Below are positions 19,306 through 33,734 of a DNA stretch of 63,287 nt, piece after piece (within the stretch, counting starts at the first letter, position 1; every line of letters begins with the position of its first letter). The notes beneath the pieces are model-generated. The model had not been told where the DNA came from, did not search any database, and saw nothing but the letters and a program-made list of their open reading frames with translations. This DNA comes from an uncultured Cycloclasticus sp. (GTDB taxonomy: Bacteria; Pseudomonadota; Gammaproteobacteria; Methylococcales; Cycloclasticaceae), in NCBI GenBank assembly GCA_913060865.1, contig CAJXTU010000013.1:1-63287 (forward strand). Direction: 5' to 3'. The translations under genes and the position numbers were made by a program.

Positions 19306-20829
19306 TTATTCGCTAATAACAGGAATACCCGCTATTTTAGATTGCCAATGGGCAGGCCCCGTTTTATGTACGGATTCGCCGTTCGAGTCTACTGCTACGG
19401 TAACAGGCATATCTTCCACATAAAACTCTCTGATCGCTTCCATACCTAAATCCTCAAAAGCAATAACCTTGGAGCTTTTAATAGCTTTTGATACGAGATA
19501 AGCGGCACCACCAATAGCCATTAAGTAAGTCGCTTTGTGTTTTTTAATCGCCTCAATACCCGTAGGGCCACGTTCAGCTTTTCCGATCATGCCAAGTAAG
19601 CCGGTTTTATCTAACATCATTTCGGTGAATTTATCCATGCGTGTTGCCGTTGTTGGGCCAGCTGGTCCAACAACTTCATCACGGACAGGATCAACAGGGC
19701 CCACGTAATAGATGAAACGATTTTTGAAATCGACGCCGTCAGGCAATGTTTCACCTTTAGCAAACATATCGGCGATTCGTTTATGCGCAGCATCGCGCCC
19801 AGTTAGCATATGACCACTCAGTAGTAAGCGGTCGCCGGGTTGCCATGCCTGTGCTTCTTCTTCGGTCACGGTATCTAAGTTAACGTGTTTTGTTTGGGCA
19901 TCAGGTGCCCAAGCAATATCAGGCCAATCTTCAAGTTTTGGTGGTTCTATATAGGAAGGCCCAGAGCCATCTAAAACAAAGTGTGCATGACGAGTGGCGG
20001 CACAATTGGGAATCATCGCAACCGGTAATGAAGCGGCGTGCGTTGGCATATGGTTGATTTTTACATCTAATACGGTGGTTAACCCACCGAGCCCTTGGGC
20101 ACCGATGCCGAGAGCATTTACTTTTTCAAAAAGCTCTAAGCGTAGTTCTTCTGCGCGATCATTGGGGCCACGATCTTTTAGCTCCTGAATGTCGATGTGT
20201 TCCATTAACGACTCTTTTGCCAACTTCATGGCCATTTCGGCAGTGCCACCTACGCCAATACCTAAAATACCGGGTGGGCACCAACCCGCACCCATCGTAG
20301 GTACAGTTTTTAATACCCAGTCGACAAGGCTGTCGCTTGGATTAAGCATGACGAATTTAGATTTATTTTCTGAGCCGCCACCTTTGGCGGCAACATGAAT
20401 GCTGACGGTATTGCCGGGTACGATTTTCATGTGCACAACGGCCGGGGTGTTGTCTCCAGTGTTTTTTCGCGCACCCAATGGGTCAGCCACAATAGAGGCT
20501 CTTAGTACATTGTCAGGGTGCAGGTAGGCTTGTCTTACGCCTTCATTACACATATCTTCAACGCTCATGGTGCTATCCCATTGCACATCCATGCCAATTT
20601 CTAAAAATAGGTTAGCAATTCCAGTATCTTGGCAAATAGGGCGGTGGTCCATCGCGCACATGCGTGAATTGAGGAGAATTTGTGCCATGGCGTCTTTTGC
20701 CGCGGGGGATTCTTCTAATTCGTAAGCTTTGCCTAAGGCTTGAATGTAATCTTTTGGATGGTAATAGGAGATAAATTGAAAGGCAGCAGCGACGCTTTCA
20801 ATAAGGTCATTTTGTTTGATAATAGTCAT
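19306..20829 (-). CDS. fumA: Fumarate hydratase class I
   Basis: 4Fe-4S hydratase that interconverts fumarate and malate in the TCA cycle. The protein is 507 aa with the N-terminal alpha domain (NSRMCAMDHRPICQDTG, with a probable cluster Cys) and the C-terminal beta domain in one chain, like FumA/FumB. Further motifs are GAGWCPPGILGIGVGG and GPAGPTTATRMDKF. It starts 27 bp after the large signalling gene on the same strand, so it may share a transcript. A terminator follows it. Confidence 0.93.
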   Translation of the reverse strand: MTIIKQNDLIESVAAAFQFISYYHPKDYIQALGKAYELEESPAAKDAMAQILLNSRMCAMDHRPICQDTGIANLFLEIGMDVQWDSTMSVEDMCNEGVRQAYLHPDNVLRASIVADPLGARKNTGDNTPAVVHMKIVPGNTVSIHVAAKGGGSENKSKFVMLNPSDSLVDWVLKTVPTMGAGWCPPGILGIGVGGTAEMAMKLAKESLMEHIDIQELKDRGPNDRAEELRLELFEKVNALGIGAQGLGGLTTVLDVKINHMPTHAASLPVAMIPNCAATRHAHFVLDGSGPSYIEPPKLEDWPDIAWAPDAQTKHVNLDTVTEEEAQAWQPGDRLLLSGHMLTGRDAAHKRIADMFAKGETLPDGVDFKNRFIYYVGPVDPVRDEVVGPAGPTTATRMDKFTEMMLDKTGLLGMIGKAERGPTGIEAIKKHKATYLMAIGGAAYLVSKAIKSSKVIAFEDLGMEAIREFYVEDMPVTVAVDSNGESVHKTGPAHWQSKIAGIPVISE

Positions 20830-20856: not shown

Positions 20857-23800
20857 TTATTGTAACAAAGTGATTGGGTAGACGTTATCTATTACCTTAT
20901 TGAAAAATAGCTTTTCAAATTCTTTAGTGGGCATGGGTTTGCCGAAATAATAGCCTTGAACGTAGTCACAATTTAAACTCTTAAGTAGGGTGCTTTGCTC
21001 TTCTGTTTCAACCCCTTCTGCGATGACTTCTATACCCATACTATGAGCCAAAACAATAATGGTTCGTATGATGTCAATATCCACTTTATTATTAAGACTA
21101 TTGTTAACGAATGAACGGTCTATTTTTAATAGGTTGATAGGTAATCGCTTTAAATAACTAAGAGAGGAATAGCCTGTTCCAAAGTCATCGATGGCCAGTT
21201 TTATGCCTAAATTTTTAAGAATGTTTAACTTGTTAATCATCAGTTGTTCGTTATTCATGACAGAACTTTCTGTGATTTCAAGTTCAAGTAAATGGTGTGG
21301 TAATTGAGTTGTTTCTAAAATTGAAGAAATTTTATTTACAATTCCTTCATCTTCTAACTGAAGTGTTGATAAGTTAACCGCTACCCTTATAGGTTTAGCG
21401 CCTCGGTCAAGCCATTTTTTTAATGCTGAGCAAGCAGTTTCTAATACCCACTCTCCAATCATATGAATTTGTCCTGTTTCTTCAGCTAGACCAATAAAAT
21501 CATTAGGAGGAATAAGTCCTTTCTCTGGGTGAAGCCAGCGTACAAGCGCTTCCATGCCGACCAATTCGCCAGTCGATACGTTAAACTGGGGTTGATAAAA
21601 AACTTTTAATTCATCACGCAAAATAACATTACGTAATTCATTTTCTATCACTAAGCGTTTGTTGATACTTTCGGTCATAGTGTCATCAAAGAACACATAT
21701 GGGGTCTTTGACTGCTTAGATGAATACATAGCAATATCTGCATTTTTTATCAGGTTACTGATATTATCTCCAGTGGTGGGAAATACGCTAATCCCAAGAC
21801 TAGCATTTACATGCATTTCTTTTTCTAAGAAGACAAATGGTCTTGATAGGTTGTTTTGTATTTTACGGGCCAAGGTCTCAATTATATGATGCGACTTAAC
21901 ATCTGTTAAAGCGATAACAAATTCATCACCTCCAAACCGCGAAATGATATCTACTTCTCTAACGCTTCTTGAAAGGCGTTCGGCTACAATTTTTAATAAT
22001 AAATCACCTGCTTCATGGCCGTATGAATCATTAACGAGTTTGAAACGATCTAAATCTAGAAAAATAATGGCCATTATTTTCTCTTCACGTTCATGTTTAG
22101 CAATCAGTTCGGTAGCCCTTTTGGTAAATAAAGACCGGTTCATTAAACCAGTTAAATGATCTTTGTGGGCTAAGTCGAATATTTGTTTTTCGTTCTGTTT
22201 AGTCGTTAATATTCGATTAATTCGATGAATGAAAAGCGGCAGGTTCAATGGTTTTGAAAAATAATCAAGTGCGCCAACTTGAAATGCATTGTTAATGGAG
22301 GTTTCGTTTTCTTGATTTGAGGTGATGGTGAAAGGAATATTATTGCTGGATAATTCATGGCAAATTTTGTTAAAGCTATGATCATCATTGGATGAAGCAT
22401 GTTCTAAAATAACCATATCCGGTGTGTTTCGCTCGCAGTATAGCTCTCCTTGGTAGTTATTAATTACTTCATCTACATTGTGCCCTGTATCCTCCAAAGC
22501 ATTTTTTATTAAACTTCGATCTCTTTTATCAGTGTCAATTAATAGGATTTTAGCGGGGCTAAAACGTTGGTTTAACTCCATTGTTTTTGTATCTAGCTCG
22601 CTAAGTCTAGAGGAAACTTCTTTAATAACTAATTCAGCTTCGAACACAATAATTTTATGCTGTAGATTTAAAAATTTAGCTTCACCATCACCACAAGCAT
22701 TTTCAAGTTTTTGACAAGCTTGGGAAAGTCGTAAGGCGGCTATATTGGAAGCACTACTTTTTATTGATGCTGTAATGCGTTTAATATTAGCTCTATCAAG
22801 TTGGGAAACGTCCATTTTTAATTTAGTTAAGGAAAGAGGGGTTTCTTCAAGAAATGTCTCCAGTACAGTTTTAAACTCAGGCCCAAGTGTTTCTTGGCGT
22901 TTTAAATAAGACGTTTCATCCAGAACTGTTTTTATTAATATGTTGTTTTCAATACGCTGTTTAGGGTGGCTCTTTATGGCATCAAGTGATATCCATCGCT
23001 GTAAGGTATTTTTTAAGGACATGAGTGTTAATGGTTTTGCCATAAAGTCATCCATCCCTGCGGCTATACATTGTTCTCGGTCGATAGATTGCTGGTTCGC
23101 GGTTAAAGCGACGATAGGTGTGTGAGTACCTTGGGTTTCAAGTTCACGAATTTGGAATGTTGCTTCATAACCATCCATTTCAGGCATTTGGCAATCCATC
23201 AAAATAAGGTCAAATGCTTGGGCAGAGAATAGTTCTAGCGCCTCTAGGCCATCGTTAGCCAGGGTGATGTTGCACTTAAAACGCTCTAGCATGGCTTTAG
23301 CCACAAGTTGATTAGCTTTGTTATCTTCGACAACAAGAATATTCTTAAATTTATACTCGGGAAGGTGTTCTTCTACCTCCGCTTGTTCAACTAAAGACGT
23401 TGTTTTTAATGTTGTTGATGTGCTGAAGTTTAATATTAAATCTGATTGTTTAACAGGTCGGCTGATGTGTCCAAACACGTTTAATTCTTTGGTTGAGTCA
23501 AAGTGAGTTGAATTATTCGCAACCAGTGCGATTATTTTTGTTTCGTTTAATGTGTTATCGGCATTAATCATACGAATTAATGCAGTTTGGCTAATGCTTG
23601 AATGAAGTTTATCGATTAAAACAAAGTCGTAAGGGCGTTTTAGCGCTTTGTGTTGACGCATTTTTTTTATTGCGCCAGGACCATCACTCACATGATCTGA
23701 AAAATAAGAAAGAGCTTGGAATTGTTGCTCGATAAAGCGGCTAGAAAAATCATCATCACCGACATATAAAATATTAAGGTGGCTTGGCATTGTGGGTGCG

Positions 23801-25320
23801 TTTGACTGTTTTTGTTCATTGGCTTGCTTATCAATAATGAAATTTGCAGTAAACCAAAAAGTACTTCCTTTCCCCTCTTCGCTATTTACGCCCATCTCAC
23901 CGCCAAATATAGTAACAAGTTGTCGGCTGATCGCCAGGCCTAGCCCAGTGCCGCCAAACTCTCTAGTAGTTGAGTTATCGGCTTGTGAAAAAGCGTTAAA
24001 TATTTTATTTTGGACTTCCTGAGGGATACCCATGCCGGTATCTTTTACTTCAAACAGTAAGGTAATATTGCTTTCATGCAATGAAGATATTGATGTGGTG
24101 ACACTGACTTCGCCAGTGTGGGTAAACTTGATAGCATTCCCGAGTAAATTTTGTAGAATTTGTTGAAGCCTTAACTCATCTGCAATCAAATTAATAGGCA
24201 CGTCGCTGTTTAGGAAATAAGCGATGGAAATATTTTTTCGCTGGGTTTGAGTGCTTAATAGGGTAATGGAATTTTCTAATGTATTACGTAAGTTAAAGGA
24301 CTCTTCGTGTAATGCGACATCATGCTGGTCATATTTAGAAAAGTCTAAAACATCATCAATTAAGCCTAATAGTGAGTTGGCGCTAGTAGAGGCGACCTTT
24401 AAATATTCTTTTTGTTGGGTGGTAAGGTTCATATCAGACAGCAGCTCTAACATACCAGAAATACCATTTAAGGGTGTCCTGAGCTCGTGACTAACATTGG
24501 CTGCAAATTCACTTTTGACTTTCGCAGCTTCAATAGCAATGTCGCGTGTTGTTACCAGTTCTTTTTCGCGGTTTTCTAGAATGTGCATCATGTCAGTAAA
24601 TGCTTGTTCCATTCTCATAATGTCTTGTGTGCTACCAATACTTTTTCGATCTGTTACGTTGCCTTCTGCAGCGTTAAGCATGTTCTGAGCAAGGTTCTCG
24701 ATGGGTTTGCTGATACGTTTTGTAATGATTAAAAGAGCCCATAATAAAAGTAGGGCTAAGACACTGATAACGATTAAATTATATTTATAAAAATCATTTT
24801 TAAGTGCACTGAGTACATTTTTACTGACCGTTAGGCGGACGTAACCTAATAGTTTTGGCTCAAACTCATTATCGGAATAAAGAAAGGTTTCTTCATCATG
24901 GGTACTAAAAACAGGTGAACTATACGTCCACTCATTTTCATTTTCATAGTCTAATAAAGTGGAATTTGTGGGGAGGGTCGTTGTTTGCCTTTCTGATAGA
25001 TCACTACTTTGATAAATAACTTGCATTTTATCGTTATAAATACCAGCTGCCTTAACGTCTGGAAAGGAGAGAATTGATTCTACGACTAATTGGGCCTCAG
25101 CTTCGCTGAGGTACAATAGTGCGATACGGCTGTTATTTGCAAAAGACTCGACAAGTTGGAGCCCTGTTTTATTAAGGCTATCATGAACACTCCTTGAAGA
25201 TAAGTTTGAAGTGACTAGCGTAGCAATCGTTATTAAGAGTGCAATTCCTATAAAATAGGTTGTGGTCAGTAGATTTTTAAAACTGCGTTGCGTTAAAAAT
25301 TTGTATAGTTGCTTAATCAT
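20857..25320 (-). CDS. Membrane hybrid sensor kinase with three receiver-like domains, a degenerate Hpt, GGDEF and EAL
   Basis: A 1,487-aa inner-membrane signalling protein. Positions below count from the in-frame GTG two codons upstream; the ATG start at 25320 is preferred. TM1 is at ~20-40, TM2 at ~183-203, with a CHASE8-like periplasmic sensor between, then HAMP. HisKA has the phospho-acceptor His280 (NVSHELRTPLNG), and HATPase has the N, G1 and G2 boxes. The first receiver (~517-635) keeps Asp572 but has Arg for the conserved Lys. The second (662-780) is normal, with Asp711 and Lys764. An Hpt-like segment (~810-910) reads ASIKSSASNIAA, with Ala853 where His belongs. The third receiver (~925-1040) has Glu975 for Asp. 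GGDEF is intact (1132-1136, RxxD 1123-1126), and EAL is intact (MEALVRW, IDDFGTGYSS, AEGVET). It overlaps the binding-protein gene by 8 bases. Confidence 0.93.
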   Translation of the reverse strand: MIKQLYKFLTQRSFKNLLTTTYFIGIALLITIATLVTSNLSSRSVHDSLNKTGLQLVESFANNSRIALLYLSEAEAQLVVESILSFPDVKAAGIYNDKMQVIYQSSDLSERQTTTLPTNSTLLDYENENEWTYSSPVFSTHDEETFLYSDNEFEPKLLGYVRLTVSKNVLSALKNDFYKYNLIVISVLALLLLWALLIITKRISKPIENLAQNMLNAAEGNVTDRKSIGSTQDIMRMEQAFTDMMHILENREKELVTTRDIAIEAAKVKSEFAANVSHELRTPLNGISGMLELLSDMNLTTQQKEYLKVASTSANSLLGLIDDVLDFSKYDQHDVALHEESFNLRNTLENSITLLSTQTQRKNISIAYFLNSDVPINLIADELRLQQILQNLLGNAIKFTHTGEVSVTTSISSLHESNITLLFEVKDTGMGIPQEVQNKIFNAFSQADNSTTREFGGTGLGLAISRQLVTIFGGEMGVNSEEGKGSTFWFTANFIIDKQANEQKQSNAPTMPSHLNILYVGDDDFSSRFIEQQFQALSYFSDHVSDGPGAIKKMRQHKALKRPYDFVLIDKLHSSISQTALIRMINADNTLNETKIIALVANNSTHFDSTKELNVFGHISRPVKQSDLILNFSTSTTLKTTSLVEQAEVEEHLPEYKFKNILVVEDNKANQLVAKAMLERFKCNITLANDGLEALELFSAQAFDLILMDCQMPEMDGYEATFQIRELETQGTHTPIVALTANQQSIDREQCIAAGMDDFMAKPLTLMSLKNTLQRWISLDAIKSHPKQRIENNILIKTVLDETSYLKRQETLGPEFKTVLETFLEETPLSLTKLKMDVSQLDRANIKRITASIKSSASNIAALRLSQACQKLENACGDGEAKFLNLQHKIIVFEAELVIKEVSSRLSELDTKTMELNQRFSPAKILLIDTDKRDRSLIKNALEDTGHNVDEVINNYQGELYCERNTPDMVILEHASSNDDHSFNKICHELSSNNIPFTITSNQENETSINNAFQVGALDYFSKPLNLPLFIHRINRILTTKQNEKQIFDLAHKDHLTGLMNRSLFTKRATELIAKHEREEKIMAIIFLDLDRFKLVNDSYGHEAGDLLLKIVAERLSRSVREVDIISRFGGDEFVIALTDVKSHHIIETLARKIQNNLSRPFVFLEKEMHVNASLGISVFPTTGDNISNLIKNADIAMYSSKQSKTPYVFFDDTMTESINKRLVIENELRNVILRDELKVFYQPQFNVSTGELVGMEALVRWLHPEKGLIPPNDFIGLAEETGQIHMIGEWVLETACSALKKWLDRGAKPIRVAVNLSTLQLEDEGIVNKISSILETTQLPHHLLELEITESSVMNNEQLMINKLNILKNLGIKLAIDDFGTGYSSLSYLKRLPINLLKIDRSFVNNSLNNKVDIDIIRTIIVLAHSMGIEVIAEGVETEEQSTLLKSLNCDYVQGYYFGKPMPTKEFEKLFFNKVIDNVYPITLLQ

Positions 25321-26278
25321 TTGCACTGACCCTTGGGTATGTCAAAGCAAAGTTAGTTTTTTGTTTTACATTGATGATGTTTGAGAGATGTTTAGCGGTC
25401 CTAAGGTTAGCAACGACGAGTGATGACTGCATGGGCATAATGTTAACTTTTTGCCCATTTAATAGACGAATAGTCGTGAGAGCTAAATCTTTTCCTATTT
25501 GCTGGTTATCGGGGAGTAATGATAAGAGTGCTCCCCGGCGCACATGTGATGGATTGCTAGATATAACGACTTGTTTGTATTTCCAAGCATCAGATAAAAT
25601 CCTTGGTAATAAACTTTTACTATCAAAGGTTGGGTCATGATGTAAAAGCCATAAAGCACTCTTAGTATGATCACTATTACGAACTATTTTTTTATATATT
25701 AAAGCAGATTGTTGTAGGTTTGATGCTTCATGAGGAATGATAGTAATTCCATTTTTAGCCGTGCTTTCAATAGCTCTTTGAACTAACCAGCCGTTAGTTG
25801 TTGGGTCAAATACAACATGAATTTCTTTAATGGTGGGCTGTATTTTTTTTAATTCTGCAAAAAGAAGGATGGGGTCTGGGCTCATAGATACGCCACTACG
25901 ACCTCTGTTAATGTCATGACCGGAAAGAAATGAAGCGCCACGAACGGTTTTAAATGATGCGTCTATTTTTTCTTGAAGGGATTTAAACCCTCCACCGAGT
26001 AATATGACTAGGTCGGGATTCTTCTGTTGGAGAAACTGTAAAACGTCACTTTCTTGTGAGGATTTGTTAATACTACGTGTTTGTAAATTAAGGTGAGGTT
26101 GGTCTTTAATTCCATCGATAATAGCATCAAAAAATGTGCTGTACGGCTTTCTGGCTTCAGGGTAAAAAATAGTTACGTTAAACGTGGTGTTAGCCATTAG
26201 GTCGTCATCCGCAATAGTGCTTGCGCAAAACAGTAGAACAAGTATCAGCGCGCTATAAAAATTTTTAAAATATATCAT
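25313..26278 (-). CDS. Periplasmic ABC-type substrate-binding protein (PF04392-like)
   Basis: A 321-aa secreted protein with a signal peptide (hydrophobic FYSALILVLLFCAS, then ADDDL). The fold style (FDAIIDGIKDQ, PDLVILLGGG, IHVVFDPTTNGW, ALWLLHHDP) matches the ABC_sub_bind family (PF04392). The C-terminal part carries MPMQSSLVVANLRTAKHL. No permease or ATPase gene is nearby. Instead it lies between a TonB receptor and a membrane hybrid kinase, and its stop overlaps the kinase start. It is therefore likely a periplasmic ligand detector for the kinase rather than a transport subunit. The ligand cannot be named. Confidence 0.82.
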   Translation of the reverse strand: MIYFKNFYSALILVLLFCASTIADDDLMANTTFNVTIFYPEARKPYSTFFDAIIDGIKDQPHLNLQTRSINKSSQESDVLQFLQQKNPDLVILLGGGFKSLQEKIDASFKTVRGASFLSGHDINRGRSGVSMSPDPILLFAELKKIQPTIKEIHVVFDPTTNGWLVQRAIESTAKNGITIIPHEASNLQQSALIYKKIVRNSDHTKSALWLLHHDPTFDSKSLLPRILSDAWKYKQVVISSNPSHVRRGALLSLLPDNQQIGKDLALTTIRLLNGQKVNIMPMQSSLVVANLRTAKHLSNIINVKQKTNFALTYPRVSAND

Positions 26279-26337
26279 TGAATTTTAATCGTCCTTGATT
26301 ATTTTGTATTTGCCATCTGCATACGGTTAGAGCAAAC

Positions 26338-28419
26338 TTAATGCAGTGATTTTCGTAATTCAATAAACAAGCCTCTACCAGCCAATGGTAAATCATTAGT
26401 AATTGCACCCGGTGCTAGTGACGGCTCTCGCGCATCTTCATCAAACAAATTTCTTGCAGATATTGCGAACTCGTACCCAGGTGAAAACTCTTTAGCACGT
26501 AAGGTTAAATCTACAATGCTGTAATCATCAATATCTGAGCGAAGGTCGCCACTGGCTCGTTGCCTGTCCATTACATGGTTAAACTGCGAATTGATTGACC
26601 AAATGGGGCTTAAGTCATAATTGGCTCGTATATACATTTGTTGTTGAGGCGCATCGGCAGCATCACTACTAGTGGCTTTGTCCTCAGATGATTGATAGGC
26701 ATAATTACCGTAGACAGCTAATTTATCGGTCGCTTTCCAATTAACTTCCATTTCTAAACCATGACCTGTTTGTTTGCCGGTATTGTTGGCGGTGGTTGGG
26801 TCAAAGCGGATAATATCGTCTATTTGATAATAGAATATATTGAAGCCGATTTTTAAATCGTTAGTGGCGGCATAGTCAAAAGCAAGCTCATAGGTATCGA
26901 TAACTTCTGGGTCAAGGTCTGGGTTACCAACAGCCACGGGGTTATTAATATTAAATTGTTCTGCAAAAGAGGGCGCTCTGAATGATCGGCCATACAGTAG
27001 TTTACTGGTTAAACGGTAATTGGTTTGCCAAACAAGAGCTAATCTTGGGTTAACTGTGCTGCCAAAATCTGAATAATGGTCATATCGTAAGCCAGCTGTT
27101 AACGTCCAATCAGGGGCGAAGTCCCATGCATCTTGGATAAACCCATAATAAATTTTACGGGTTTTTTCTTGGTTAAATGGTGCGGTGTCTGTCACATCCA
27201 TAAGACTTCCAAGAGGAATAAGAGCCGCTCCAAAAGGTACATAGTTTTTCATTTCCTCAATTTTGTACTGGTCTTGATGGTGGAAGCCAGTGCCAACGCG
27301 AATATCATGGTTGTTTATACCGGTGTAAAACGTAGAGAGGTCTAAACGGTTATGTCGCTCGTATATGTTTGGTTTAGCCAATACGCCATTAGGGAAAGTG
27401 TGAATTGGAAGCCCGGTTGTATTGGTACCGGGTGGAAGTAATACTAGGTCTGAGCGAGTAATGCTGTTAAAAATACTGTATTGTGCTTTAAACTCCCACC
27501 CTTCTATTGAGTCCTTATTAAGATAAGTGATATCTGCATTGTATCGATCGGCTTCAACTTCTCCAGTTAAGTCAATTGCTTGGAATAAACCGGCACCTGT
27601 TTCACCCTTTCTTCGACTTTGATAGCCTAGTCGAACCTGCCATGTGTCTTTAGAAATATCTAAGCGGGTATCTAATGATTGACGGCCTAATGTTACTCCA
27701 TTAGGCGCTAATGAAGCATTTGTGTTAAGAAAAGGATTAGCGTCAAGGGCAGATTGAAAATCATTTTCAATTTTTTCATGTTGCCCGTGTGTGTCTAAAA
27801 CCTGTGCAGAGAAGGCCGTATCCCAACCAGCAATTGAACCACCGTATTGTAACCAACCGCGGTATTCGTCAAAACTACCTGCGGATGCGCCTATTTCTAG
27901 CCCATCAATTTCGGTAGAGTTTTTAGTAATGATATTAATGGTTCCAGCAAACGCATCCGCACCATAAATAGCGGAGCCTGGGCCTCGAATGACTTCAATA
28001 CGTGAAATATTCTCAACGGGCATGCCGCCCCATGCTTGAGAGCGGTCACCTGTAAAAATATTAGTGATGGGGATGCCATTGATCAGCATTAGAACTTGGG
28101 AGTTAACATTTGATGAAATGCCGCGTATTTGGTAAATGGGGTTGTAGCCGCCAGCTGTGTATGAAACGTGTAAACCCGGTATGGTTTCTAGTACCTCGTC
28201 AATGTCCCTAGCTCCAATTTGACGAATCGTTTTTGCTGAAATAATACTGGCAACGGCAGGGGCTTGAGACACGGTTTGTTTTCGCCCTGTGGCGATATAA
28301 ATATATTCCTCATCACCATAGATGCCCTCTAACGTATTGTCGTCTCCATTAAATGCGTATGAGGTGGTTCCAAAAGAGAAGAGTATAATTAAGAGCAACC
28401 AAGCAATCGTTTTTTTCAT
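26338..28419 (-). CDS. TonB-dependent outer-membrane receptor
   Basis: A 693-aa receptor with a signal peptide (WLLLIILFSFGTTSYA), a possible TonB box in EEYIYIATGRKQ, a plug domain (IPGLHVSYTAGGYNPIYQIR; RIEVIRGPGSAIYGADAFAG) and a 22-strand barrel with the typical terminal Phe-like ending (GRGLFIELRKSLH). Plug and barrel resemble the BtuB/colicin I receptor branch, which takes up siderophores, cobalamin or other scarce ligands. The substrate is unknown. It lies 56 bp after the citrate-synthase-like gene with no terminator seen, and 59 bp before the binding-protein gene. Confidence 0.92.
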   Translation of the reverse strand: MKKTIAWLLLIILFSFGTTSYAFNGDDNTLEGIYGDEEYIYIATGRKQTVSQAPAVASIISAKTIRQIGARDIDEVLETIPGLHVSYTAGGYNPIYQIRGISSNVNSQVLMLINGIPITNIFTGDRSQAWGGMPVENISRIEVIRGPGSAIYGADAFAGTINIITKNSTEIDGLEIGASAGSFDEYRGWLQYGGSIAGWDTAFSAQVLDTHGQHEKIENDFQSALDANPFLNTNASLAPNGVTLGRQSLDTRLDISKDTWQVRLGYQSRRKGETGAGLFQAIDLTGEVEADRYNADITYLNKDSIEGWEFKAQYSIFNSITRSDLVLLPPGTNTTGLPIHTFPNGVLAKPNIYERHNRLDLSTFYTGINNHDIRVGTGFHHQDQYKIEEMKNYVPFGAALIPLGSLMDVTDTAPFNQEKTRKIYYGFIQDAWDFAPDWTLTAGLRYDHYSDFGSTVNPRLALVWQTNYRLTSKLLYGRSFRAPSFAEQFNINNPVAVGNPDLDPEVIDTYELAFDYAATNDLKIGFNIFYYQIDDIIRFDPTTANNTGKQTGHGLEMEVNWKATDKLAVYGNYAYQSSEDKATSSDAADAPQQQMYIRANYDLSPIWSINSQFNHVMDRQRASGDLRSDIDDYSIVDLTLRAKEFSPGYEFAISARNLFDEDAREPSLAPGAITNDLPLAGRGLFIELRKSLH

Positions 28420-28475
28420 GAATGAGCCTATGTAATTTTTATTTGTTGTTTTAAGGTTAGTTCATATTTTGTAAA

Positions 28476-29276
28476 TTACCAGTTTCGATCTCCTCGTCCT
28501 TTATAACTTAGGCGACTACAGGGTAGAGGGAAGAATGTACCTTCTTCGTGACTGACTGCATCAATAAAACATGGCAATATTCCTGATGAAAAAGCAATGA
28601 TTATTCCGTAATACTGTTCTCGCGTTGTGAAGCCAATGTCTGCTATTAAGGCAGAGTTAATACCAGCAGCATTCATTCTTAATTTGTACCTAGATTCATA
28701 AAGAATTTTTTCAATTTCAAAAGTAAGTTGTGTGTGGGGGCCATTAGCTAAACCTAGTTTTTTTGCCTCGTTGAGCAAAGGTGTAATTCTTTCATCTGAA
28801 TTTGCAACAGGCCGCCCAAACCCTGGGATTGAACGATTTGTTTTTAATTCATTTAATACAAATTTAGCTAAGTCTTTATTTTTATCAACAATAGATTGGG
28901 CTCTTTTGATGAAGTCTATTGCCAGAAAGCCAGCATTTGTACCATAGACGTTTGCTTCTGAACAAGCAGTTGAGGCAGCAATCGCGAGTGCACCAGTTGA
29001 TTTTGCAGATGCGCTGAGAGCTGCAATACGATTATTCCAGATTCTAGGGTCTGGGTAACTCATCGTTAATGACCATATTTTTTCCATTAATTTAATTTCA
29101 TTATCAGAGAACATTTTATTCGTGATCCCAAAAATAAAATGTTTAAACCATGAAATATCATTAAGCTCTGTGAATAGGTCTTTTCCTCTAAAAACGACCC
29201 GTTCACCTACAAATGCTGCGCCGATATCAGTATGCCAATTATCTTCAGCCTTTATTAGAGTCCCTGGACCTTTCAA
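28476..29276 (-). CDS. Citrate-synthase-fold protein (citryl-CoA lyase-like), catalytic residues apparently absent
   Basis: A 266-aa protein with the helical style of the citrate synthase/citryl-CoA lyase family (MSYPDPRIWNNRIAALSAS, RSIPGFGRPVANSDERI, GFTTREQYYGIIIAFSSG). Aligned by eye, the three catalytic positions are changed. The His of the HGGANE motif is Tyr111 (VYGTNAG), the His of GFGHP is Arg155 (GFGRP), and the Asp of NVDG is Ala204 (MNAAG). The start is TTG at 29276, in a TTGA overlap with the stop of the previous gene. Length matches single-domain citryl-CoA lyase rather than full citrate synthase. With the next entry it forms a pair of related but different subunits. Family placement is good; function is unknown. 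Confidence 0.78.
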   Translation of the reverse strand: MKGPGTLIKAEDNWHTDIGAAFVGERVVFRGKDLFTELNDISWFKHFIFGITNKMFSDNEIKLMEKIWSLTMSYPDPRIWNNRIAALSASAKSTGALAIAASTACSEANVYGTNAGFLAIDFIKRAQSIVDKNKDLAKFVLNELKTNRSIPGFGRPVANSDERITPLLNEAKKLGLANGPHTQLTFEIEKILYESRYKLRMNAAGINSALIADIGFTTREQYYGIIIAFSSGILPCFIDAVSHEEGTFFPLPCSRLSYKGRGDRNW

Positions 29277-30100
29277 AGTGAGGCCTCTGTTATTGGTTGA
29301 GAACTTGCTGGACCTGGGTCGTTAGTAAGCGTTAATCCCTCACCAAAGAATGGGTATTTACGCCAGCCCAATTTTTTCTGCTCCAGTGAATGAACGGCAG
29401 CGCCTGGTAAACGTAATAACAAAAACAACATCTCAGCTTGTTCATCAGTTAATTCAAGATCTGTGAATGCAGCAGCAATAACACCTGTCATAGCTAACGG
29501 ACAATCGGCAGCTTGCTCCAGTTGCTCTCGATGAGTTGATAAATAAGCCAGGGAACCGTCAGGGCAAATAGTCGCTAAATGATTTAAGGTTTGTAAAACG
29601 GGTGTAGCGCAACTTGCTCCATACGGATCAAAACCAGGAGAGTGCTCACTGGCGGGCCAAACTTCCACCTCTTCTTCATCTTGATAGTTGGATAGTTTTT
29701 GTTGCCACGTTGATAGATCAAATTGGCACTGTTGCCATAAACGCATCACTTGATAAACTTCTCTAGCGCCTCCATTTTTACCAGCGCCAGGTGCCAATGC
29801 GGCCATTAAACAGGAAGCGGCTGTTGAGCCGCCAACACCGCCATTCATTGCACCTCTAACGCTTAAATCTCGCGGGCCTGGGTTGGCAATGGCAATGGCA
29901 ATAGCTTCCAATAATTCAGCTTGCCATGGCTGAGGTTTTTCTAATTTGAAGAGCAAGTATATATATTCAGACCAAGATATCTTACCTAACAAATCGCCAT
30001 AAACATCATAGCCAGAGCAATAAGATCTTTTAGCTGCGAAAGGGTTGTTGGGCTCTTCTTCTTCAAACCATATTTTGGTGGTTATTTTTTCTTTTTGCAT
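29273..30100 (-). CDS. Second citrate-synthase-fold protein (citryl-CoA lyase-like), catalytic residues apparently absent
   Basis: A 275-aa protein of the same superfamily but clearly distinct from its neighbour. Family features are the N-terminal SGYDVYGDLLGKISWSEYIY, GGSTAASCLMAALAPGAG, and the C-terminal RLPGAAVHSLEQKKLGWRKY, where CS-type proteins have GxxAHxLEQ and citryl-CoA lyases have GWR. The HGGANE His is replaced by Asn109 (KNGGARE), the GFGHP His is lost (GFDPYG, 156-161), and the NVDG Asp becomes Thr205 (AMTGVIAAA). His237 of the C-terminal motif is kept. It starts 2 bp after the ThDP gene stop and overlaps the next gene by 4 bases, so all three are translationally coupled. Confidence 0.78.
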   Translation of the reverse strand: MQKEKITTKIWFEEEEPNNPFAAKRSYCSGYDVYGDLLGKISWSEYIYLLFKLEKPQPWQAELLEAIAIAIANPGPRDLSVRGAMNGGVGGSTAASCLMAALAPGAGKNGGAREVYQVMRLWQQCQFDLSTWQQKLSNYQDEEEVEVWPASEHSPGFDPYGASCATPVLQTLNHLATICPDGSLAYLSTHREQLEQAADCPLAMTGVIAAAFTDLELTDEQAEMLFLLLRLPGAAVHSLEQKKLGWRKYPFFGEGLTLTNDPGPASSQPITEASL

Positions 30101-30102
30101 TG

Positions 30103-31932
30103 TTATTTCATGCCTTTTAAACGTGTTGCAATTGGAGGTACTTCTTCGGCATCTATTCTAATGTCGAGTAATGTGGGTCCGTTACGGTTGCACATTTTAT
30201 CTATATCTAAGCTGAGTAAATCGTCGGCTGTTTCAATGGTTTGGCTCATGATGCCCATCGCTGAAGCCATTAACGCATAACTAATATTAGGTAATTTGTT
30301 TGCAATATCAGCTGATTTATTCAACCGTTGGCCGTGTTTAACCATGCCTAAATGTTGATCATTCATGATGAGGAAAATAACGTTTAATTTTTCCTGTAAT
30401 GCGACGGTTATTTCGTTTCCTGACATAAGAAAACTTCCATCACCAACAATGCAAACAACGGGGTCATTTGGATGGGCTAGAGCGGTGCCAATCGCACTGC
30501 CGACAGACCAGCCCATTGAACAAAATTCAGCACAAATTTGTAACAGCCCCGCACTATTTGAACGCCTATCATGCTCATCTCTTTTTGCTACTCTGCGGTT
30601 GGAGTAACGCCTATCATAAGGGTTAAGGTAATGAATGGCCCAAGCGAGATTATTGCCAGTATCTGCTAGGTACCGCGCGTTGGCCGGAAATATTTGGGTT
30701 AATTGAGCCATTAAGTATTGTGGTTTTAAGGGGCTGGATGAATCGGTCGTTTTTATAGGCTCATCAAATTCAAAATGAAGTAGCTTTTGGTTATCAATTT
30801 GCATATGAGAGAAAAACTGAGCTTTATCAATCACAGATTGGGCGGGTGTCGATGTTTTTTCTTTGTCGAGGGTATTATGGTTGTCCAAAATGGCTTCTAA
30901 AATGGTGGGAATATGGCCACCTACTTGAAGTTTTGCCATAGATGATCGAGTAAAGTTCTCTTGATTACTATCAATATGTATAAGCTTGCTATTCAGTAGT
31001 GTTAACTGATCCCATGCGTTGCTCGTGAATTCACCTAAAGCAGAGCCAATGACAACAACGGTATCTACAGCGTTACTCTGAAGAGCCCTGTTTGCACTTT
31101 TATGTCCAGCAAAGCCTATCACACCACGGTAAGAGGGGTGATAGGGGTTGATGAAGCTTTTACCATCTGGTGTGGCGACAAATTCAACATCTAACTGGTT
31201 TATGCATTGTGCAATTAAACTACTGCAAACCTTTGCGCCTGCACCGACAACAAAGATTATTTTTTTTGAATTATTTAATTCTGTTAATAAATCTTGTATG
31301 GCATTTTCATCTTTTAATATCGGCCGTCTTAATAAATTTTCTATATTGATTGGTTGTTGTTTGATTGGGATACTGCTTTTTAAAATATCGGTTGGGATGC
31401 TCAGGTGTGTTGGCCCACCAGGTGAATTAAAAGCCGACATAATGGCGGAGACAAGTTTATGTTCAAATTGTTCAATATGGGTAACGTAGCTGTTGTATCT
31501 AGTAAACAGTTGAAACATACCAGAAATATCTATCCCAGTATCGCCAGATTCTTGCATGGCTTTTTTGCCTACTTTATCTTGAGCAGTTTGGGGTGTGATA
31601 ATCAATAAGGGTGTGTTATTTTCGTAAGAAGAGGCGACCCCAGTAATCATATTGGTAGCGCCTGGACCAGTTGTAGAGCAGCACACTCCAAGCTTACCTG
31701 TATTTCTAGCGTAAGCATCAGCCATAAAAACGGCCCCTGTTTCATGTCTTGCGGTTATGGCCCTTATGCCGCCACGCTTTTCACTTTTAGCTAAGGCATT
31801 ATAAAGCGGTTCTATGGCGCCACCAGGAATACCAAAGATAAATTCAACCCCTATTTTTTCTAAATAATCGAGTAGAAGGTCACAGCTAGCAACCTCATTT
31901 TCTGGGTTGCTTTTTGAAAGAATTGCACTCAT
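30103..31932 (-). CDS. ThDP-dependent enzyme of the acetolactate synthase / benzoylformate decarboxylase superfamily
   Basis: A 609-aa enzyme with the three domains of the IlvB-like family. The Pyr domain has the activating Glu64 (ARHETGAVFMADAYAR) and CSTTGPGATNMITG. The central domain has VVGAGAK. The PP domain has the ThDP/metal motif GDG (497-499) through MND (523-525). The catalytic set therefore looks intact. An unusual Arg-rich insert, roughly residues 441-458 (RRYSNRRVAKRDEHDRR), precedes the PP domain. It is not the biosynthetic acetolactate synthase in its usual setting, because no ilvN/ilvH regulatory subunit follows. Two citrate-synthase-fold genes follow in a tightly packed operon. 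The substrate is unknown; a 2-oxoacid is likely. Confidence 0.85.
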   Translation of the reverse strand: MSAILSKSNPENEVASCDLLLDYLEKIGVEFIFGIPGGAIEPLYNALAKSEKRGGIRAITARHETGAVFMADAYARNTGKLGVCCSTTGPGATNMITGVASSYENNTPLLIITPQTAQDKVGKKAMQESGDTGIDISGMFQLFTRYNSYVTHIEQFEHKLVSAIMSAFNSPGGPTHLSIPTDILKSSIPIKQQPINIENLLRRPILKDENAIQDLLTELNNSKKIIFVVGAGAKVCSSLIAQCINQLDVEFVATPDGKSFINPYHPSYRGVIGFAGHKSANRALQSNAVDTVVVIGSALGEFTSNAWDQLTLLNSKLIHIDSNQENFTRSSMAKLQVGGHIPTILEAILDNHNTLDKEKTSTPAQSVIDKAQFFSHMQIDNQKLLHFEFDEPIKTTDSSSPLKPQYLMAQLTQIFPANARYLADTGNNLAWAIHYLNPYDRRYSNRRVAKRDEHDRRSNSAGLLQICAEFCSMGWSVGSAIGTALAHPNDPVVCIVGDGSFLMSGNEITVALQEKLNVIFLIMNDQHLGMVKHGQRLNKSADIANKLPNISYALMASAMGIMSQTIETADDLLSLDIDKMCNRNGPTLLDIRIDAEEVPPIATRLKGMK

Positions 31933-32288: not shown

Positions 32289-33734
<1,446 letters not shown>

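Follow-up and report, generated by a model that had tools for sequence, protein, structure and literature searches.

In an uncultured Cycloclasticus sp. (assembly GCA_913060865.1, contig CAJXTU010000013.1), three coupled genes encode a thiamine diphosphate (ThDP) enzyme of the acetolactate-synthase superfamily and two unequal proteins, hereafter CS1 and CS2, which are predicted to adopt the citryl-coenzyme A (CoA) lyase fold and lack its catalytic triad. The trio maps to positions 28476-31932 of the 63,287-nt stretch of this contig analysed here, which is referred to as the window. It is near certain that the three genes form, together with those for a TonB-dependent outer-membrane receptor, a periplasmic ligand-binding protein and a hybrid sensor kinase, a single inherited unit of six genes. 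The chances that bacteria make and sense one small molecule through this module are about even.

Gene order and co-inheritance

On the minus strand, the genes follow the order sucA-sucB-lpd, ThDP enzyme, CS1, CS2, receptor, ABC_sub_bind protein, hybrid kinase and fumarase. The ThDP enzyme, also annotated as a TPP enzyme (30103-31932; 609 aa; Pfam TPP_enzyme_N/M/C), is separated by a 2-bp gap (30101-30102) from CS1 (29273-30100; 275 aa), which in turn overlaps CS2 (28476-29276; 266 aa, with a TTG start) by the four bases TTGA (29276-29273). These are followed by the receptor (26338-28419; Pfam Plug and TonB_dep_Rec; PF00593 147 bits, PF07715 91.7 bits), by a periplasmic protein of the ABC_sub_bind type (25313-26278; PF04392 46.8 bits, cut-off 25.9) and by a hybrid sensor histidine kinase of 1489 aa with receiver, Hpt, GGDEF and EAL domains (20857-25326; Pfam). 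An initial annotation of the window had given the order of the trio, the gap and the overlap as they stand in the sequence; its gene set was real but incomplete, since the receptor, the periplasmic protein and the sensor kinase belong to the same unit.

The inheritance of the module within the genus was followed at thresholds of E ≤ 1e-100 for the ThDP enzyme and the receptor, and E ≤ 1e-20 for the binding protein. CS1 is present in 20 of 101 related genomes and in 9 of the 18 genomes of the genus, and the identical nine carry the ThDP enzyme and the binding protein. In every one of the nine carriers the fetched loci show CS2 next to CS1, and the receptor is found in eight, the ninth (G014) having its enzyme genes at a contig end. 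In the other nine genomes, five of which are at least 98% complete, CS1, ThDP enzyme, binding protein and receptor are all absent at these thresholds. Outside the module, the flanking genes are lpd (32289-33734) and fumarase (19306-20829; Pfam). In six module-less genomes of the genus lpd directly precedes fumarase, with the two matches 24-138 bp apart, at the place where the window holds the module (20857-31932), which therefore behaves as a single insertion or deletion unit of ~11.1 kb. Identity to the window across the genus loci (L002-L009) is 80-88% for CS1, 74-81% for the receptor and 54-60% for CS2, and falls to 43-77%, in full-length matches, for the binding protein; the fast-evolving genes may carry specificity.

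Some individual copies are interrupted. The ThDP frame of G005 (L005/L023) contains one TAA stop and the CS1 frame of G001 one TGA, which would be either real breaks or errors. In the case of G020, a single contig, CS2 is split, with its first 54 residues beside CS1 and the rest ~516 kb away (L018/L030, L167), and related unidentified open reading frames occur at both breaks.

Distribution and neighbourhood across lineages

A scan of one genome per species gave at least 235 relatives, and 80 loci were kept and fetched. Their carriers include Cycloclasticus, Porticoccus, Marinobacter, Hahella, Collimonas, Gallionella, Dechloromonas and Geobacter/Pelotalea records, as well as one record titled Planctomycetota (L106) and another titled Flavobacteriales (L096), the latter a 3.7-kb contig that may be mis-binned. 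CS2 is found in 79 of the 80 loci, the ThDP enzyme in 78, the receptor in 69 and a binding protein of the window type in 45, so that, for this main clade, the neighbourhood survey proposed in the initial annotation finds the trio travelling together. The start of CS2 lies between -30 and +60 bp from the CS1 stop in 74 of the 79 loci, with the four-base overlap in 22. As for the ThDP gene, 63 of 78 loci have its end no more than 66 bp from CS1, 3 have it in divergent orientation and 12 have it farther away, several of these with a short-chain dehydrogenase/reductase (SDR) in the gap. In a class sample of 274 genomes, CS1 occurs in 30, all of them also with CS2 (adjacent on one contig in 28/30), and CS2 in 32, including two genomes with CS2 only, one of these copies being a 59-residue piece.

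Sensing genes surround the trio at frequencies far from those of random surroundings, as judged from the 49 loci in which CS1 is flanked by 6 kb or more on each side (loci with room) and from 20 control stretches taken from five module genomes. Within 6 kb of CS1, 48 of the 49 loci have a receptor, 46 any sensor part, 44 a binding or YfiR-like protein, 43 a kinase and 41 a GGDEF-EAL protein. The corresponding counts in the 20 controls are no receptor and no binding protein, two YfiR-like proteins, one GGDEF-EAL protein, five kinases and six stretches with any sensor part, and a chance neighbourhood was rejected on this basis. Two further candidates were also rejected: an anti-phage role, as PADLOC gave no match for CS1, CS2, ThDP enzyme or binding protein, and a plasmid home, as CS1 had no plasmid match in protein mode.

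Fold and altered site of CS1 and CS2

Single-chain AlphaFold2 models of both small proteins, built from orthologue alignments, reached a predicted local distance difference test score (pLDDT) of 92.1 and a predicted TM score (pTM) of 0.87 for CS2, and 88.8 and 0.85, respectively, for CS1. In VIA-align, where rows within 1 Z unit count as tied, the two models match the same chain of the citryl-CoA lyase of Hydrogenobacter (6hxp), CS2 with Z 22.9 and a root-mean-square deviation of 2.3 over 231 residues, and CS1 with Z 20.1 and a deviation of 6.2 over 244 residues. Foldseek and sequence profiles concur, and 6hxp is the top PDB sequence match of both profiles (E 1.4e-11 for CS1, 1.1e-11 for CS2). 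The models are thus consistent with the earlier view that the rest of the fold is kept in both proteins. Family models reach these sequences less readily: PF00285 gives 28.7 for CS2, above its cut-off of 27, and 10.5 for CS1, below it, and neither protein reaches the cut-off of the NCBIfam citryl-CoA lyase models. The hits of PRK06224.1-3 (137 of 143 class genomes) are useless as a count of CS1/CS2, because this NCBIfam model also matches ordinary citrate synthases. In the phylogenetic tree CS1 forms one monophyletic group (100/98) and CS2 another (100/99), and both clades include distant forms, so the pair predates the split between main and distant loci.

The His/His/Asp triad is intact in 6hxp (HGGA, GYGH and NVDG motifs) and in the GltA of the same genome, as aligned with MAFFT, and absent from CS1 and CS2 of the window. 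No alignment of the window proteins places an intact triad at the catalytic positions, in agreement with the loss in both copies that the initial annotation had read by eye. Its residue equivalences fared unevenly. Asn109 at the first His and Thr205 at the Asp of CS1, as well as Ala204 at the Asp of CS2, hold with both MAFFT and HMMER, but Tyr111 and Arg155 of CS2 depend on the alignment. The equivalent of the first His in CS2 is Val110 in two MAFFT alignments and a residue near 115 in HMMER, Tyr111 being a third placement, and there is no His anywhere in this stretch of the window protein. Arg155 stands opposite the second His in one MAFFT alignment only; in the other, and in HMMER, the second His is deleted and Arg155 corresponds to the Arg that follows it. 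In the case of CS1, MAFFT allows two alignments of the GFDP loop at the region of the second His.

Column counts over 56 CS1 and 52 CS2 orthologues indicate which substitutes are kept. The proposal that they would be conserved is correct for some of them, such as CS2 R155 (52/52) and position 111 (Y49 F2 V1), but not for CS1 position 109, which is variable (L31 Y11 N6 S4 H1 C1 V1 A1). The position of the Asp is never Asp in either protein, with S34 and T22 at CS1 205, and A31 S9 G5 T4 V3 at CS2 204. Position 160 of CS1, the next but one after the GFDP loop, is His in 25, Asn in 20 and Tyr in 11 of the 56. Invariant residues are W148, H153, G156 and F157 in CS1 (56/56), and W80, T94, R155, P156, D161, E162, R163 and N202 in CS2 (52/52). 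Among the distant forms, the first His of CS1 is kept in 6 of 9 (7 of 11 counting L168 and L169), with Asp in none of the 11 and no His aligned at the second position, and none of the three triad residues occurs at the aligned positions in 11 distant CS2 proteins, a twelfth (L160) being broken and unusable. It appears from these columns that the Asp, the base of the usual chemistry of the fold, is gone throughout the sampled orthologues, and that the first His has been lost in part of the family only. Gene decay is ruled out by the conservation across phyla, and, as far as sequence can tell, the site of CS1/CS2 is a conserved altered site.

The same columns bear on whether the pair would still be catalytic. 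CS1 and CS2 could be enzymes with catalytic residues relocated across a shared interface, instead of a scaffold, a tentative possibility under which the making and sensing of one molecule may still hold. The invariance of CS1 H153 and of CS2 R155, D161, E162, R163 and N202 is in line with it, as is the first His retained in 7 of 11 distant CS1 proteins. However, conservation is no demonstration of catalysis, and position 109 of CS1 varies within the main clade.

A further citryl-CoA-lyase-like gene was noticed elsewhere in the same genome (L042 1384-2163; C20:14191-14934), with a thiolase/DUF35-like pair on one side and an acyl-CoA dehydrogenase on the other, by eye. It keeps GFGH, has Leu or Val at the first His and shows NATG in place of NVDG, and partial triad loss is therefore not limited to the module.

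The ThDP enzyme

The initial annotation had described an intact-looking enzyme of the acetolactate-synthase type, and the residues expected for ThDP catalysis are indeed in place: Glu64 as the catalytic residue, and Asp498 and Asn524 of the GDG...N site as metal ligands, are each kept in 76 of 77 rows. Acetolactate synthase itself is alike in fold, catalytic Glu and GDG...N site, but the enzyme of the window misses the family cut-off (TIGR00118 285.5, cut-off 538.35) and has ALGEF where its homologue in the same genome has RFDDR, a stretch that presumably has a role in flavin adenine dinucleotide (FAD) binding. Its closest solved relatives by phmmer are BbmA (8x3x, 273.5 bits), which shares with it the GFAGH stretch and W307, and CsmA (8x3z, 237.5 bits). 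Both are known here by the names given by the PDB depositors, and we take them to be enzymes joining keto acids; a search of the open-access literature returned no paper with BbmA, CsmA and thiamine together, and their function was not found there.

It is extremely improbable that the trio consists of an ordinary acetolactate synthase next to decaying duplicates of citrate synthase. Pfam does give the superfamily name to the ThDP enzyme and that of citrate synthase to CS2. Nevertheless, the TIGR00118 score falls short, the genome holds a second TPP_enzyme_N gene (acetolactate-synthase-like by eye) and three more genes of the citrate synthase family, and the conservation of CS1/CS2 across phyla, together with their co-inheritance, is incompatible with such decay.

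A candidate module for making and sensing a small molecule

Taken by their families, the ThDP enzyme, CS1 and CS2 would be formers or breakers of C-C bonds, whereas the remaining genes, for a receptor, a periplasmic ligand-binding protein with no transporter to partner it and a GGDEF/EAL kinase, read as outside-to-inside signalling. The periplasmic component is not the same in all lineages. A locus of Marinobacter (L098) carries a YfiR-like protein of the TOL_0243 family (132.3 bits, cut-off 125) along with a CHASE8 kinase, a receiver-GGDEF-EAL protein and a receptor, and a YfiR-like protein is also found in L157. Some loci contain additional enzymes: an SDR lies no more than 3.5 kb from CS1 in 5 of 80, 2 of 80 have an O-methyltransferase at a distance of up to 6.5 kb, and an SDR adjoins the CS1/CS2 pair in L156 and L161 of the distant clade as well. 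By analogy, such additions resemble pathways whose product varies with the lineage.

The best explanation as a whole, to which we give slightly less than an even chance, is that CS1/CS2 bind a CoA ester in partnership with a ThDP carboligase, the product of which is sensed by the receptor of the module. The trio would provide the synthesis in a make-and-sense module of six genes, where the ThDP enzyme would decarboxylate a 2-oxo acid and hand the ThDP-bound acyl carbanion to an acceptor. A CS1+CS2 heterodimer would bind and present a CoA ester, either as the acceptor itself or as the compound from which a keto-acid acceptor derives. A small molecule resembling a hydroxyketone or a diketone would result, in some lineages reduced by the SDR or O-methylated, which would exit the cell and be recognised by the TonB-dependent receptor of the module itself. 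Finally, the signal would pass through the periplasmic binding protein, or the YfiR-like protein in other lineages, to tune the GGDEF/EAL output of the kinase and thereby cyclic di-GMP (c-di-GMP). Heterodimer, CoA binding, reaction, class of product and its identity with the receptor ligand are all steps that we infer. The initial annotation had proposed a heteromeric complex with new chemistry, or a scaffold for CoA or another ligand, acting on what the ThDP enzyme makes, a view that the data support in part.

Covariation was explored in 27 loci with 15 pairs tested (partial r with permutation p), an exploratory analysis on genes that are linked. The binding protein covaries with the sensor part of the kinase more than the remainder of the kinase would explain (partial r 0.53, permutation p 0.0005), and CS1 covaries with the receptor (partial r 0.66, permutation p 0.0005). 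Together with gene content, this covariation speaks for one module that both makes and senses a molecule.

Several observations weigh against this reading. In the same 27 loci, no covariation was found between the ThDP enzyme and either the binding protein (-0.20) or the sensor (-0.32), nor between CS2 and these two (0.09 and 0.07). Receptors and kinases of these families serve many ligands, there is no exporter among the module's genes, SDR and O-methyltransferase are confined to a minority of loci, and the sister grouping of CS1 and CS2 has moderate support (90/77). Incomplete sets also occur: L106 has the enzymes but no receptor and no sensor, a receptor without any sensor part is found in L071 and L095, and an 11.6-kb contig of G278 carries CS2, receptor, binding protein and kinase in a genome without CS1 at E ≤ 1e-20. 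Moreover, the distant clade (11 loci from ten genomes, L156-L166, with CS1 about a third identical) weighs against a strict trio. With a shuffled gene order, 10 of its 11 loci have a receptor and 10 some sensor part, but the ThDP enzyme is present in only five (L156, L159, L160, where it is broken, L162 and L163). It is absent from L157 and L161 despite ~9 kb on each side, and the four other loci without it (L158, L164, L165 and L166) are either split or truncated at contig ends. The joint travel of the trio claimed in the initial annotation is accordingly solid in the main clade but weaker here, the pair is linked to the receptor more strictly, or from an earlier time, than it is visibly linked to the ThDP enzyme, and the odds for making and sensing were kept near even for this reason. 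Two loci of this clade deserve separate mention: in L156 (6078-16883) a single CS1/CS2 pair is surrounded by two copies each of the ThDP and receptor genes, plus the SDR, and in L160 (6901-12398; G134) the frames of receptor, CS2 and ThDP enzyme are in pieces, through decay or sequencing error.

The prominence of the receptor also suits a metallophore system, in which the enzymes would make a small chelator, the receptor would recover the metal complex and the kinase would report its return. TonB-dependent receptors often carry metal chelates, and 48 of the 49 loci with room have one. Such a system is nevertheless rather unlikely, as Pfam detects no inner-membrane permease, ATPase or exporter in the six genes, the siderophore-receptor model TIGR01783 scores 146.6 against a cut-off of 223.5, and a YfiR-like regulator replaces the binding protein in some lineages. 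A third use of the same genes would be catabolic, with the receptor importing an environmental compound, the kinase sensing it, and the ThDP enzyme and CS1/CS2 converting or cleaving it. The closest fold relatives of the pair are lyases, and hydrocarbon degradation is a trait of several carrier genera. The TonB-dependent receptor TOL_0244 of Thalassolituus is reported to be up sevenfold on C28 alkane as compared to Tween 80 (PMC6304351), a response that also fits a catabolic role. On the other hand, the lyase triad is lost, the unit has no inner-membrane importer, the receptor of the window scores 152.6 where the TOL_0244 family requires 645, and carriers such as Gallionella, Dechloromonas, Collimonas and the Geobacter records share no obvious substrate, all of which makes a catabolic unit improbable.

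Meaning and comparison with known systems

If the make-and-sense reading is true, several phyla would share an undescribed means of producing a small molecule and detecting it across the outer membrane, linked directly to c-di-GMP and hence to surface life. The core would represent new enzymology, a citrate-synthase-fold pair that acts beside a ThDP enzyme and persists in hundreds of orthologues although the residues defining the chemistry of the fold are lost, and the annotations "acetolactate synthase" and "citryl-CoA lyase" mislead for these genes. The question is testable, given the small genes, the cultured carriers (Marinobacter, Collimonas) and the natural module-less sister genomes. 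It is doubtful, although possible, that the module represents a new signalling class of Gamma- and Betaproteobacteria and Desulfuromonadota, in which a ThDP carboligase would work with an obligate CS1/CS2 heterodimer holding a CoA ester, and the product would be read by receptor, relay and c-di-GMP hub.

To our knowledge, the synthetic core has no characterised counterpart. No family model names the module above its cut-off, and no description of it was found in the open-access literature, where absence is not absence from print. The accessible parts of PMC12247030, on ThDP enzymes making tertiary alcohols, of PMC12141560, on heteromeric enzymes, and of PMC10199937 do not describe it, and the citryl-CoA lyase, acetolactate synthase and TonB-dependent receptor in the accessible part of PMC7522526 are unrelated genes.

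Among known systems, CS1 and CS2 share fold and length with the citryl-CoA lyase of Hydrogenobacter and with the citryl-CoA lyase module of ATP-citrate lyase, from which they differ as an unequal pair without the triad, set beside a ThDP enzyme, a receptor and a sensor. Siderophore systems have in common with the module the TonB-dependent receptor, but an inner-membrane importer is absent from the six genes. For a molecule made and sensed by one unit, synthase and receptor should be inherited together, as they are in the genus and, in the case of the ThDP enzyme, more weakly in the distant clade. The alpha-hydroxyketone signalling of CqsA/CqsS and LqsA/LqsS offers a likeness in this respect, with a synthase adjoining a histidine kinase; the known synthases are pyridoxal phosphate (PLP) enzymes, and Pfam finds no PLP-dependent synthase domain of the CqsA/LqsA type in the six genes of the module. 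Finally, YfiBNR-type systems control c-di-GMP, and these, like TOL_0243/TOL_0244 of Thalassolituus, have a likeness in the Marinobacter locus with its YfiR-like protein, CHASE8 kinase, receiver-GGDEF-EAL protein and receptor, whereas the module of the window has an ABC_sub_bind protein in place of YfiR and adds to the sensing genes a set of biosynthetic enzymes.

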